Positions 36,774-41,436 of a stretch of 64,000 nt of DNA are shown piece by piece. Made by a program: the position numbers and the translations under genes. Position 1 is the first letter of the stretch; each line of letters opens with the position of its first letter. The DNA comes from Fibrobacterota bacterium (GTDB taxonomy: Bacteria; Fibrobacterota; Fibrobacteria; UBA11236), in contig JAQBPO010000050.1 in NCBI GenBank assembly GCA_028287465.1, positions 1-64,000 on the forward strand, read 5' to 3'. Below the pieces are notes generated by a model. That model had not been told where the DNA came from. It did no database searches and saw only the letters and a program-made list of their open reading frames with translations.

Positions 36774-36789
36774 TGAACTATCCGGTTCA
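36774..36789. promoter_or_regulatory. TetR operator upstream of the regulator gene
   Basis: TGAAC-TATCCG-GTTCA, the same 5-6-5 palindrome as at 38694 and 38747, ending 18 bases before the tetR start. Predicted autoregulation site. Confidence 0.7.
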
Positions 36790-36807
36790 GAATGGTACAT
36801 TGATCCC

Positions 36808-37359
36808 ATGGGCAGACCCAGGAATTTCAGCCGCGAAGAAGTCCTCGAAAAGGCCATGCCGCTCTTCTGGAAGCGCGGCTTCGCCGATACCGGGCTCCAG
36901 GATCTGGAGAAGGCCACGGGAGTCAACAAATCCGGGCTTTATACGGAATTCAAGAACAAGGAAGACCTGTTCCTGGCCGCCCTGCGGCATTACAACGAGA
37001 CCCGCAAGGGCCGGGACCTCCTGTCCGTTGAGCCCTTGGGATGGGGCAATATTGAGCGTTTCCTGAAATTCAAGCTGGCCCGCAAGGACGGGATGAAGGG
37101 ATGCTTCGCCGTCAATTCCATGCGCGAAACCGAATTGCTGCCGGCGGAGGCCCAGGACATCATGACGGAAAGCCGGGCCAACCTGAAGCGGCTTTTCCTC
37201 AAGAACATCGCCGCCGAAAAGACGAAGACGCCTCCCGAGGCCCTTACCGAAATCCTGTCGACCTTCTTCTCCGGGATCTGCATCGAGCAGAACCTGAACG
37301 CCGAAAAAAACCAGGCCCGCAAGGTCGAGGACTTCGTCCGCTTCCTGCGCGCCCAATAG
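36808..37359 (+). CDS. TetR family transcriptional regulator
   Basis: 183 residues. The N-terminal helix-turn-helix is clear ('GRPRNFSREEVLEKAMPLFWKRGFADTGLQDLEKATGVNKSGLYTEFKNKEDLF'-type layout, residues 2-55) and the C-terminal ~120 residues are a helical ligand-binding domain with 'MKGCFAVNSMRETELLP'. Typically a dimeric repressor released by a small molecule. Three TGAAC-N6-GTTCA palindromes (before this gene, and two in the promoter region of the MFS pump) match a dimeric operator, so it probably represses itself and the transporter. It converges on the transporter gene with a tandem repeat between. Confidence 0.9.
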   Translation: MGRPRNFSREEVLEKAMPLFWKRGFADTGLQDLEKATGVNKSGLYTEFKNKEDLFLAALRHYNETRKGRDLLSVEPLGWGNIERFLKFKLARKDGMKGCFAVNSMRETELLPAEAQDIMTESRANLKRLFLKNIAAEKTKTPPEALTEILSTFFSGICIEQNLNAEKNQARKVEDFVRFLRAQ

Positions 37360-37413
37360 GACCCGCCCCGAAGGGGGCTTCCGATGGACCACGCCCCGAA
37401 TGGGGCTTCCGAT
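37359..37413. repeat. Tandem hairpin repeat between tetR and the MFS gene
   Basis: Two adjacent copies (37359-37385 and 37386-37413) of a 27/28-bp unit share GGACC, the hairpin core GCCCCGAA-GGGGC and CTTCCGAT; one base insertion and one substitution separate them. They sit between convergent genes, so they may act as bidirectional terminators. Confidence 0.7.
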
Positions 37414-37418
37414 CGATT

Positions 37419-38675
37419 TCAGGCGGCCCGGGTGAGAGCGGGGGCGCGGGTGGCGGGCAGGGATGCGGCGATTTCCCTATCGGAATTCCTCCTGCGGGCG
37501 GAAACCGAGTAGGCGAGCGCCCCGAGCCCAAGGGCGAAAAGCCCGATGGACAGGATCAGGTCCGCCACGTAGCCCTGGGCCGCGTAGGCGATCCCGCCCA
37601 GGGCCGAACCGAAAGCCATGCCGGAGAAGAGGAAGGACGAAGACAGGGCCAAGGCGATGCCGCGGAAGGCCGGTTCCAGCTCCACCATCCGGCGTTGTTG
37701 CGAAGGCCATACGATGTCCGACACGAAGGGCCAGGCGACCAGGGCGGCCAGCAAAAAGGCCATGGAGATGGGCAGGACGAGGAGCGCGCTGAAGATGGCG
37801 ATGAGGACGAGCATCGATCCTTTGAGCAGGGTTTCCGAGGATCGTCTGGCGGAAGCGCTCCGCACGAAGAGGTTGCCCACCAGGCCCGAGACGCCGTAGA
37901 GCAGGAGCGCCAGGGAAACGGTGCGGGTGCCGGCGCCATAGGTATCGCGCAGGATGGGCGTGATCATGGTATAGGTCGCGAATATGCCGGCGGTGATGAA
38001 GAAGATGACGGACAGGCCGCTCAGGGTGGACGGCCGGCCCAGCAGCCGCAAGGCCTGGCGGGGGCCGACGCGCTCGCCCCGGGACCGGTCTGGGACCAGG
38101 CGGGCGATGAGGACCGCGGTCGCGACCAGCACGGCGGCCAGGCCGGCATAGAGCAGGCGGGGCCCCAGGTGTTCCCCCAGCCACGCGGACGCGGGCACCC
38201 CGACCACGGTGGCGATGCTGATCCCCATGGAGACGATGGCCAAGGCGCCGCCCTGCCGTTGGGGTTCGACCAGGCTGGACCCGAGCGCCAGGAGCACCGG
38301 GCTCAGGAGGGCCGCGCCCAGGCCCATCACCAGGCGGGCGGAAAACAGGAGCCCATAGCCCGGGGCCAGGGCGAAAACGACGGCGCCGAGCGCCATGACC
38401 AGGAGCCCGGTCAGGATCTGGGTGCGGCGGATCCAATGGCCCACCAGCATCTGCAGGAGCGGGGCGCTCAGGGCGAAGGTCGCGCCGAAGGCCGTGACCA
38501 GCAGGGCGGCGGCGGTGGGGGTGATACGCCATTCCGCCGCTACCGGGCCCAGGATGCCCACGATGGACAGGGCCGAGGTGGTCTGCACGAACATGGCGAA
38601 GCCGAAGAGGATGAGCGACCGGGAGGTCTTCCCGTCGAATCTGCCCTTGCCGGCGGGGATTGCGTTCCGTTCCAT
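37419..38675 (-). CDS. MFS efflux transporter (DHA1-like)
   Basis: 418 residues from ATG 38675 (GAAGG 5 bases upstream). Twelve hydrophobic segments are expected from the pattern, with an MFS loop 'GHWIRRTQILTGLL' and 'ARLVMGLGAALLSPVLL' in the first half, and a typical central break after 'ARLVPDRSRGERVG'. Family members export drugs or metabolites with proton antiport. A promoter and two operators of the adjacent TetR (see the operators) lie directly upstream. Located in the inner membrane. Substrate unknown. Confidence 0.86.
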   Translation of the reverse strand: MERNAIPAGKGRFDGKTSRSLILFGFAMFVQTTSALSIVGILGPVAAEWRITPTAAALLVTAFGATFALSAPLLQMLVGHWIRRTQILTGLLVMALGAVVFALAPGYGLLFSARLVMGLGAALLSPVLLALGSSLVEPQRQGGALAIVSMGISIATVVGVPASAWLGEHLGPRLLYAGLAAVLVATAVLIARLVPDRSRGERVGPRQALRLLGRPSTLSGLSVIFFITAGIFATYTMITPILRDTYGAGTRTVSLALLLYGVSGLVGNLFVRSASARRSSETLLKGSMLVLIAIFSALLVLPISMAFLLAALVAWPFVSDIVWPSQQRRMVELEPAFRGIALALSSSFLFSGMAFGSALGGIAYAAQGYVADLILSIGLFALGLGALAYSVSARRRNSDREIAASLPATRAPALTRAA

Positions 38676-38693
38676 GATTGCCTTCTTTTGTAT

Positions 38694-38709
38694 TGAACCG
38701 ATGAGTTCA
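38694..38709. promoter_or_regulatory. TetR operator overlapping the MFS -10 box
   Basis: TGAAC-CGATGA-GTTCA, extended to TTGAAC...GTTCAA, between the -10 and the ribosome site of the transporter gene. Confidence 0.75.
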
Positions 38710-38738
38710 AAATACACCGCCCCCGGAAGGGTTGTCAA
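38709..38738 (-). promoter_or_regulatory. Sigma-70-type promoter of the MFS gene
   Basis: On the minus strand TTGACA (38738-38733), 18 bases, then TATTTT (38714-38709). It is flanked by operators at 38747-38762 and 38694-38709, the layout expected for repression. Confidence 0.6.
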
Positions 38739-38746
38739 GGCTTTTG

Positions 38747-38762
38747 TGAACCAAACGGTTCA
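38747..38762. promoter_or_regulatory. TetR operator upstream of the MFS promoter
   Basis: TGAACC-AAAC-GGTTCA, a perfect 6-bp palindrome, just upstream of the -35 of the transporter and 43 bases before rsmH on the other strand, so it may influence both. Confidence 0.75.
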
Positions 38763-38788
38763 AATTGGGAACTCCCGGGCTTATATGC

Positions 38789-38796
38789 TATTTTTG
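38789..38796 (+). promoter_or_regulatory. TATTTTTG element before rsmH
   Basis: Exact match to TAnnTTTG ending 8 bases before the rsmH ATG; there is no room for a ribosome site, suggesting a leaderless or very short leader. Confidence 0.35.
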
Positions 38797-38804
38797 GGGC
38801 CGCC

Positions 38805-39935
38805 ATGACCGACGGAGATGTTCCAACGCCCCCTGGGCCGCTTCAGCAGCCCTCGCAGCCCCGACCGCCGCAGGCCCCGCAATCGCCGCAGCCGGCCCAG
38901 CCGACGCATAAGCGGCGCGTCCGCTACCGCGGCACCCATCCCCGGGGTTTCGGCGAGAAATACAAGGAGCTGGACGCCTCCCGCTACGAAGCCGACTTCC
39001 AAAAGGTGATCGAACGCGGGCAGACCCCGGCGGGCACCCATCGCCCCATCTGCGTCGACGAGATCCTCGGGATCCTGTCGCCCAAGCCCGGCGAGATCGG
39101 CCTGGACGCGACCCTGGGTTTCGGCGGGCATGCGCGCGAGTTCCTCCCCAGGATCGCGCCGGGCGGCCGGCTCTTCGGCATCGATGTCGATCCCCTGGAG
39201 CTGCCGCGCACGGAACAGCGCTTACGGGCCATGGGCTTCACCGATGCGGAATTGGTCGTGCACCGCATGAACTTCGCGGGCATGGGCAAGCTGATCGCCG
39301 AAGCGGGCCGGGGCTTCGATTTCGTGCTCGCCGATCTGGGCGTATCCTCCATGCAGATCGACAACCCTTCTCGCGGCTTCACCTTCAAGGCGGACGGCCC
39401 CCTGGATCTGCGCCTGAATCCCACCCATGGACAGCCGGCCGCCGCCCTTCTCAAGACCTGCAGCCAGGGCGACCTGGCCATGCTGCTTTACGCGAACTCC
39501 GATGAGCCCCATGCCGAGGACATCGCCAATGCGGTGGTGGCCCGCCGGGGCAAAATCCATTCGACCCTGGATCTGGCCGAAGCGGTGCGTGCGGCCCTGA
39601 AGTCCCTTCCCAAGGATATCCGCGAACGCGAGACCAAGACCTCGCTGCAACGGACCTTCCAGGCCTTGCGCATCGCCGTCAACGACGAGTTCGGCGCCCT
39701 CGACCGGTTGCTCGCATCCTTGCCCGATTGCCTGGCCCCGGGTGGGCGCGCGGCCATCCTCACCTTCCATTCCGGCGAGGACCGCCGGGTGAAGAAATCC
39801 TTCCAGGCGCTCGCGCGGGAAGGCGTCTACTCGAGCGTCGCGCCCGAACCCATCCGGCCTTCCGCCGAGGAGCGCCGCTCGAATCCGCGCAGCTCGTGCG
39901 CCAAGTTGCGTTGGGCCGTGCGCGCCCCGGCCTGA
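38805..39935 (+). CDS. rsmH: 16S rRNA (cytosine-1402-N4)-methyltransferase
   Basis: 376 residues, longer than the usual ~310. Residues 1-35 are Pro/Gln-rich, followed by a basic segment 'HKRRVRYRGTHPRGFGEKYKEL' ahead of the methyltransferase proper. I recall this N-terminal segment from a subset of RsmH proteins. SAM-binding and active-site motifs: 'DATLGFGGHAREFL', 'GRLFGIDVDPLEL', 'DFVLADLGVSSMQIDNPSRGF', 'FQALRIAVNDE', 'ILTFHSGEDRRVKK'. It methylates C1402 in the 30S decoding centre. Here it is away from the usual division cluster (no ftsL, ftsI or mraZ nearby), so a cluster rearrangement or a paralogue is possible. Cytoplasmic. Confidence 0.9.
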   Translation: MTDGDVPTPPGPLQQPSQPRPPQAPQSPQPAQPTHKRRVRYRGTHPRGFGEKYKELDASRYEADFQKVIERGQTPAGTHRPICVDEILGILSPKPGEIGLDATLGFGGHAREFLPRIAPGGRLFGIDVDPLELPRTEQRLRAMGFTDAELVVHRMNFAGMGKLIAEAGRGFDFVLADLGVSSMQIDNPSRGFTFKADGPLDLRLNPTHGQPAAALLKTCSQGDLAMLLYANSDEPHAEDIANAVVARRGKIHSTLDLAEAVRAALKSLPKDIRERETKTSLQRTFQALRIAVNDEFGALDRLLASLPDCLAPGGRAAILTFHSGEDRRVKKSFQALAREGVYSSVAPEPIRPSAEERRSNPRSSCAKLRWAVRAPA

Positions 39936-39995: not shown

Positions 39996-40334
39996 ATGGA
40001 TCCCGCATCCGAAATCGAATCCATCGTCGCGGCCATCAAGGCGTTCCGGGACGCGCGCGACTGGGAGAAGTTCCACGACCCCAAGAACCTGGCCATCTGC
40101 CTGAACGTGGAAGCGGGAGAGCTGTTGGAGGTATTCCTCTGGAAGGACAACCAGGATATCGACAAGGATCGGCTCCAGGCGGAGCTGGCGGATGTTTTCT
40201 ACGCCGCCTTCCTGATGGCGGACCTCTTCAAGTTGGACGTCGGCCATATCGTACGGGAGAAGCTGCGCCATAACGCGGAAAAATACCCGGTGGACAAGGC
40301 CAAGGGCTCGAACCGGAAATACGATGAGTTGTAG
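39996..40334 (+). CDS. MazG-like nucleotide pyrophosphohydrolase (dCTPase type)
   Basis: 112 residues. AAAGGAAGG precedes the ATG by about 6 bases. The MazG-family metal-binding pattern is clear: 'NLAICLNVEAGELLEVFLW' and 'ELADVFYAAFLMADLFKLDV', with ExxE and ExxD residues coordinating Mg2+. Short all-alpha members with 'AIKAFRDARDWEKFHDPKNLA' act like DCTPP1/RS21-C6, hydrolysing non-canonical or excess dCTP. Downstream of rsmH by 60 bases, possibly cotranscribed. House-cleaning role inferred. Confidence 0.82.
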   Translation: MDPASEIESIVAAIKAFRDARDWEKFHDPKNLAICLNVEAGELLEVFLWKDNQDIDKDRLQAELADVFYAAFLMADLFKLDVGHIVREKLRHNAEKYPVDKAKGSNRKYDEL

Positions 40335-40473: not shown

Positions 40474-41436
40474 ATGGTCCGCGTCTATTACCATGCCTCC
40501 CATGAACAGTTCCCCCCGGGCCGATTGCTCGAATACGCCCGCTTGGCCGAGCGGGCGGGGTTCAAGGGCGTTTTCTCCTCGGATCATTTCCAGCCCTGGA
40601 GCCTGAAACAGGGCGAGAGCGGTTTTTCCTGGAGCTGGCTTGGAGCGGCCATGCAGGCCACTTCCCTCCCGTTCGGGATGATCTGCGCCCCGGGACAGCG
40701 CTACCATCCCGCCATCGTGGCCCAGGCCGCGGCGACCTTGTCGGAAATGTTCCCGGACCGCTTCTGGATGGCAATCGGATCGGGCCAGGCCCTCAATGAA
40801 GCCATTACGGGCGAACGTTGGCCTTCCAAGGAAGAACGGAACGAGCGGTTGCGGGAATGCGCGGATATCCTGAGGCGTTTGTGGGCCGGGGAAATCGTGA
40901 ACCATCGCGGGCGCGTGATGGTGCAGGAGGCGCGTCTGCATACCCTGCCTTCGGGGCCCTTCCCCTTGGTGGGCGCGGCCGTGACCGCCAGGACCGCGCG
41001 GTGGCTGGGTTCCTGGGCCGACGGACTGTTGACCGTGTCCAGGCCGCCGGAGGAATTGCGGAAGGTGGTGGACGCCTTCAGGGAAGGGGGCGGCGCGGGG
41101 AAGCCCGTCTACCTCAAGGTCCAGCTCTCATATGATCAGGGCGACCGGGCCCTGGAAGGGGCATGGGAGCAGTGGAAGCCGAATATCCTGGAGAATTCCG
41201 TCCTGACGGAACTGCGGCATCCCGAACAATTGGATGACGCGGCCCGGTACGTGCGGCGCGAGGACCTGCACGGCAGCGTGCGGATATCCGGCGAAGTCGA
41301 ACGCCACCTGGATTGGCTGCGCGCGGATATCGCCCTGGGGATCGAACATCTCATCCTGCACAACGTGAACCTGAACCAGCGGCCTTTCATCGAAGCCTTC
41401 GGTGAACGCGTGCTGCCGGGCCTGGCCGGGAACTGA
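40474..41436 (+). CDS. Luciferase-like flavin-dependent oxidoreductase
   Basis: 320 residues. The (beta/alpha)8 LLM pattern is visible: 'VRVYYHASHEQFPPGRLLEYARLAERAGFKGVFSSDHF', 'MICAPGQRYHPAIVAQAAATLSEMFPDRFWMAIGSG', 'IVNHRGRVMV', 'VGAAVTARTARWLGSWADGLLTV'. It resembles the TIGR03885-type group thought to use FMN rather than F420, but I cannot verify cofactor choice. 75 bases before treZ on the same strand. Cytoplasmic; substrate unknown. Confidence 0.78.
   Translation: MVRVYYHASHEQFPPGRLLEYARLAERAGFKGVFSSDHFQPWSLKQGESGFSWSWLGAAMQATSLPFGMICAPGQRYHPAIVAQAAATLSEMFPDRFWMAIGSGQALNEAITGERWPSKEERNERLRECADILRRLWAGEIVNHRGRVMVQEARLHTLPSGPFPLVGAAVTARTARWLGSWADGLLTVSRPPEELRKVVDAFREGGGAGKPVYLKVQLSYDQGDRALEGAWEQWKPNILENSVLTELRHPEQLDDAARYVRREDLHGSVRISGEVERHLDWLRADIALGIEHLILHNVNLNQRPFIEAFGERVLPGLAGN

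Follow-up and report, generated by a model that had tools for sequence, protein, structure and literature searches.

Introduction

NemR, a TetR-family repressor of Escherichia coli, is a cysteine-based electrophile sensor. Cif is an alpha/beta-hydrolase, and an epoxide hydrolase is expected to carry an aspartate nucleophile. The target of the epoxide-responsive TetR repressor of Pseudomonas aeruginosa, CifR (PDB 6nsn, 6nsm, 6nsr), is an operon in which PMC8244358 places an MFS transporter gene together with cif, the gene for the epoxide hydrolase, and a title cited there states that CifR uses two binding sites. The operator of the acrylate-responsive AcuR of Rhodobacter sphaeroides, TAATAGAC-n6-GTCTATTA, overlaps a promoter from which acuR is transcribed as a leaderless mRNA, as described in PMC3017554.

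Here we describe a tetR-pump locus in a 64,000-nt stretch of DNA (the window) from a Fibrobacterota genome of 5.8 Mb that is 98% complete. A search of open-licence papers returned no match to the operator strings reported below, and nothing on the TetR-pump system beyond PMC8244358.

Arrangement of the locus

36774..36789, no strand: tetR operator TGAACTATCCGGTTCA, which occupies the -35 region with the spacer, immediately before the -10
36796..36801, plus strand: probable tetR -10, TACATT, placed by eye comparison, 6 nt before the ATG
36808..37359, plus strand: tetR, encoding a 183-aa TetR-family repressor with an invariant C99 (PF00440, alignments and structure model)
37419..38678, minus strand: MFS drug:H+ antiporter-like pump gene (PF07690), ATG at 38675
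38694..38709, no strand: inner operator O1, TGAACCGATGAGTTCA on the plus strand; it shares one base with the -10 TATTTT, the last of that hexamer, and spans the start point
38709..38738, minus strand: pump promoter TTGACA-N18-TATTTT
38747..38762, no strand: outer operator O2, upstream of the pump -35 and 53 bp from O1
38782..38789, plus strand: probable -10 region of the second rsmH, TATATGCT, placed by eye, with similar sequence in two congeners (G001, G003)
38805..39935, plus strand: second RsmH (MraW) paralogue (TIGR00006), a neighbour and probably not a dedicated regulon member

A sequence-only reading of the window had reported TGAAC-N6-GTTCA at three positions and a TTGACA-N18-TATTTT promoter before the MFS gene. 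Both claims hold: a pattern scan of the window found the exact palindrome at 36774-36789, 38694-38709 and 38747-38762 only, and the promoter is present on the minus strand at 38738-38709. The window would be expected to contain a mean of 0.02 copies, and three or more copies were seen in 0 of 100 shuffles. The genome scan proposed in that reading covered 100 contigs (5,818,024 bases) and returned four exact places, three of which are the window sites; the fourth (C95:25656-25671) is on another contig within an unrelated 221-aa ORF, and the palindrome is not widespread. When one mismatch was allowed, 17 places were found versus 12 for a reversed-pattern control, a near-equality that leaves information only in near-exact sites, and no obvious further regulon member emerged in the window genome at this level.

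A larger regulon in the window genome was considered and rejected, as relaxed patterns gave counts near the control or a few scattered sites and the fourth exact copy is coding. Among the weaker sites inspected in the window genome (G000) and in G002, G003 and G005 (L067-L069, L074-L077), none formed an additional pair with at most one mismatch.

The tetR and MFS genes are convergent, tail to tail, and not divergent. As in an autoregulated TetR-pump system, the palindromic operator is shared by the regulator and pump promoters, and the 53 bp between O1 and O2 amount to about five helical turns that bracket the pump promoter. The pump protein scores 113 bits against PF07690; its best NCBIfam family is Cmx/CmrA (NF033135), at 148.4 bits against a cutoff of 400, which leaves it outside that family and still an MFS_1 protein.

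The regulator and its relatives

The TetR_N helix-turn-helix domain of the regulator is recognized by PF00440 at 47.9 bits (cutoff 24). An AlphaFold2 model with a mean pLDDT of 81.6, partly of low confidence in the ligand domain, has a mostly helical two-domain fold, and its best structure matches are TetR structures with TM up to 0.65. C99 is invariant in 10 of 10 relatives, and its counterpart in the alignment with CifR is the cysteine at which chains 6nsn and 6nsm differ, for which the PDB entry titles name C107S. The tetR operator is at the same -34 position in both congeners that carry the gene (L032, L033), and both have TATATT where the window tetR has its TACATT -10. Since this -10 ends 6 nt before the ATG, the usual distance from a -10 to a start point, the tetR mRNA is probably leaderless.

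TetR orthologues were located by a genome scan in two Fibrobacterota MAGs, at 74 and 76% identity, and, at 49-54%, in two Bryobacterales MAGs, one Enterobacterales MAG and Pseudomonas sp. NFR16. A site with at most two mismatches to TGAACYNNNNRGTTCA lies within 100 bp upstream of tetR in all seven of these loci (the window plus the six homologues of at least 49% identity, L032-L037); L038, a fragment, and L039-L041, similar in the HTH only, were left out of this footprint. Sites of this quality arose in 0-57 of 4000 shuffles, frequencies that are optimistic because the shuffles were mononucleotide, and the weakest case is L036, whose site is poor with two mismatches. Looser related sites accompany a 55% identical TetR in an NFR16-family genome (G439) and two plasmid homologues (37-38%). 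At the loci of the two plasmid homologues (L091, L092), three palindromes separate tetR from the MFS gene; these have drifted to TAAAC-N6-GTTTA, and the recognition helix of the TetR is changed, with NRSSLY for NKSGLY.

Among 61 genomes, a TetR orthologue (at least 74%) was found only in the window genome and the two congeners, the rest having nothing closer than distant TetRs (no more than 39% over part of the protein, with two at 41-42% over the DNA-binding domain). The exact site was absent from all 27 loci that hold only distant TetRs (L004-L030). Within the family of Pseudomonas NFR16, a search of 298 genomes found two with the TetR at E 1e-25 or better.

Target promoters in other genomes

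Three genomes of the genus (G000, G002, G005) combine the TetR orthologue with an MFS orthologue (at least 65%) and the paired operators; none of the other three (G001, G003, G004) does, and in the genus the pump orthologue is confined to genomes with this TetR. The G002 MFS orthologue is 74% identical and converges on tetR just as the window gene does; one half of its outer site is damaged. The G005 orthologue is on another contig from tetR, with the same promoter hexamers and both operators kept. The slot beside tetR in G005 is occupied by two alpha/beta-hydrolase genes behind two operators, and two further places in that genome have SnoaL-like genes, one with an operator pair and one with a single site. 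These SnoaL-like genes (L065 3127-3561 and L066 4088-4618) are 81% identical, and both lie behind an operator. The description of the regulon as self-contained fits the window genome, whose one exact site outside the locus falls within an ORF; in G005, the operator is also found at two other kinds of gene.

Outside the genus, the operator pair precedes a metallo-hydrolase gene and then an unrelated MFS gene in Pseudomonas NFR16, and on Pantoea and Klebsiella plasmids it stands before an MFS gene followed by a lactonase-family gene. In G439 there is a single site before an ORF that resembles aldehyde dehydrogenase (named by eye from sequence). None of the pumps from Pseudomonas, Pantoea and Klebsiella is an orthologue of the window pump; they gave either no match or 27% identity over part of the protein.

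Counted over Fibrobacterota, Pseudomonas and the Enterobacterales plasmids, an operator pair is present at eight of ten target promoters, and the controlled gene varies. The pair spacings are 53 (window), 52, 54, 53, 49, 50, 53 and 53 bp, and the remaining two promoters (SnoaL2 at L066 and ALDH at L095) have a single operator only. Among 5000 dinucleotide-block shuffles in each case, none or one gave an equally good outer site at 49-54 bp; these frequencies are optimistic, as the consensus and the spacing range were picked after the sites had been seen. A phylum-wide search for paired sites returned 9 of 167 genomes. Three of these carry the window-type TetR and were taken as real, and of the other six (G092, G106, G026, G046, G144, G025) five look like direct repeats, judged from the printed letters.

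Comparison with described regulators

CifR on its operator is the nearest solved structure to the window TetR by both sequence and fold, and it has the cysteine aligned with C99; identity in the fold match is, however, only about 24-27%. NemR is among the next fold matches (4yze), at 21-23% identity. Whereas cifR is divergent from its morB-MFS-cif operon, the window tetR is convergent with the MFS gene, and neither morB nor cif is a neighbor at the window locus. The G005 hydrolases also differ from Cif in having serine nucleophile motifs (GNSMGG, GNSLGG) where an epoxide hydrolase should carry an aspartate.

The AcuR operator, as given in PMC3017554, has the same geometry as the window operator, and the window tetR, like acuR, looks leaderless. 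The half-site differs, however, and no acuI or dddL was seen beside the window tetR, whose product scores 33.1 bits against a cutoff of 247 for the AcuR equivalog (NCBIfam NF051457). Further known systems of this type are the TetR-MFS-lactonase-family cassettes of the Klebsiella and Pantoea plasmids and Pseudomonas sp. NFR16. Their TetRs are homologous to that of the window (37-50%) and their target promoters are bracketed by similar operators 50-53 bp apart, but their pumps are not orthologous, and in the plasmid cassettes the genes are divergent and the operator drifts to TAAAC-N6-GTTTA.

The adjacent rsmH gene

The gene beyond O2 encodes an RsmH by TIGR00006 (212.9 bits, cutoff 154.3), but it does not lie in an mraZ-rsmH-ftsL-ftsI cluster. 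That cluster, with its own rsmH, is on contig C3 of the same genome, where mraZ, ftsL and ftsI were named by eye from order and sequence. The second paralogue is 33% identical to the dcw-cluster copy and is found in five of six genomes of the genus; the window protein carries, behind its first residues, a Pro/Gln-rich insertion absent from the four congeners. A MazG-like gene (39996-40334) directly follows it, and a MazG-like sequence also follows the G001 copy, by eye. An LLM-class oxidoreductase gene is found at 40474-41436 (TIGR03885, 494.6 versus 398.7 bits).

Because O2 lies before rsmH, it had been proposed that rRNA methylation and efflux are co-regulated by this TetR. As a functional unit this is unlikely. 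The site does adjoin rsmH, although the distance to the ATG is 42 bases (38763-38804) and not the 43 that had been given, and a possible rsmH -35, TTCAAA (38759-38764), 17 bp before TATATG, overlaps the last four bases of O2 by eye, so that binding could hinder the promoter. However, pump, hydrolase and SnoaL promoters retain the outer operator where no rsmH adjoins them, which marks the 38747 site as the conserved outer operator of the pump; none of the four congener rsmH orthologues (G001, G003, G004, G005) has a site at three or fewer mismatches within 300 bp upstream; and the gene is the second paralogue, the dcw-cluster copy being elsewhere. The link between rsmH and the operator is therefore weak. 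Since O2 touches the possible -35, repression of rsmH as a side effect is possible in the window genome alone.

Discussion

From the sites, their rarity, conservation and spacing, and their co-occurrence with the regulator, we infer a local autoregulated efflux circuit in which a CifR/NemR-like TetR represses one pump, with a probability of roughly 0.87; binding, repression, cooperativity, inducer and substrate are predicted parts of this circuit. A TetR dimer would bind TGAAC-N6-GTTCA. At its own gene, one dimer would cover the promoter between the -35 and the -10, giving negative autoregulation. At the pump gene, two dimers would flank the promoter with five helical turns between them: the first would sit on the -10 and start point and the second upstream of the -35, and together, perhaps cooperatively, they would keep RNA polymerase off. 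Release of the repressor by a toxic compound may then turn on both the pump and more repressor; the analogy to CifR and NemR suggests that this compound would be a reactive electrophile and that C99 would sense it. The invariant C99 and the cargo genes suggest that this TetR is an electrophile or xenobiotic sensor, which we regard as a lead.

It is very improbable that the palindromes arose by chance or serve a different DNA-binding protein. TetR and other families commonly use simple palindromes as motifs, and the fourth genomic copy falls in a coding sequence; against this, three copies lie within 2 kb versus one elsewhere in 5.8 Mb, and the palindromes track the window-type TetR across genomes and contigs. 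By this comparative evidence the palindromes are real operators of the adjacent TetR. The claim that the consensus lets the regulator's site be read directly is likewise well supported by the rarity of the palindrome, the tetR-upstream sites in other phyla and its retention at the pump promoter in two congeners.

For the two pump-promoter operators, DNA looping or protein-protein cooperativity, as opposed to independent blocks, would fit a spacing near 53 bp (49-54) that is held in eight promoters of Fibrobacterota, Pseudomonas and Enterobacterales despite unlike intervening sequence. Yet this spacing may merely mirror a fixed promoter length between the operators (-35 to -10 plus margins), and a single operator suffices at two promoters, and we consider looping or cooperativity possible but lean against it. 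Within the proposed repressor-pump circuit, simple occlusion strengthened by the second dimer is the most likely mode of action.

By comparative evidence the regulon is real, and it is ordinary in kind, a repressor-pump circuit. The tempting link between efflux and rRNA methylation is removed as unsupported. For a previously uncharacterised TetR clade, the operator, the layout of the promoter and a list of targets can now be read from sequence. At somewhat less than even odds, this cysteine-bearing clade may keep, across phyla, a promoter bracketed by two operators five turns apart while its cargo is freely exchanged, and would thereby serve as a plug-in switch against reactive chemicals; the exchanged cargo comprises two or more unrelated MFS pumps, alpha/beta-hydrolases, SnoaL-like proteins and a metallo-hydrolase, together with an aldehyde dehydrogenase at a single site. 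The part that deserves specialist attention is this case of the same bracketed promoter being retained in distant hosts while its cargo changed.
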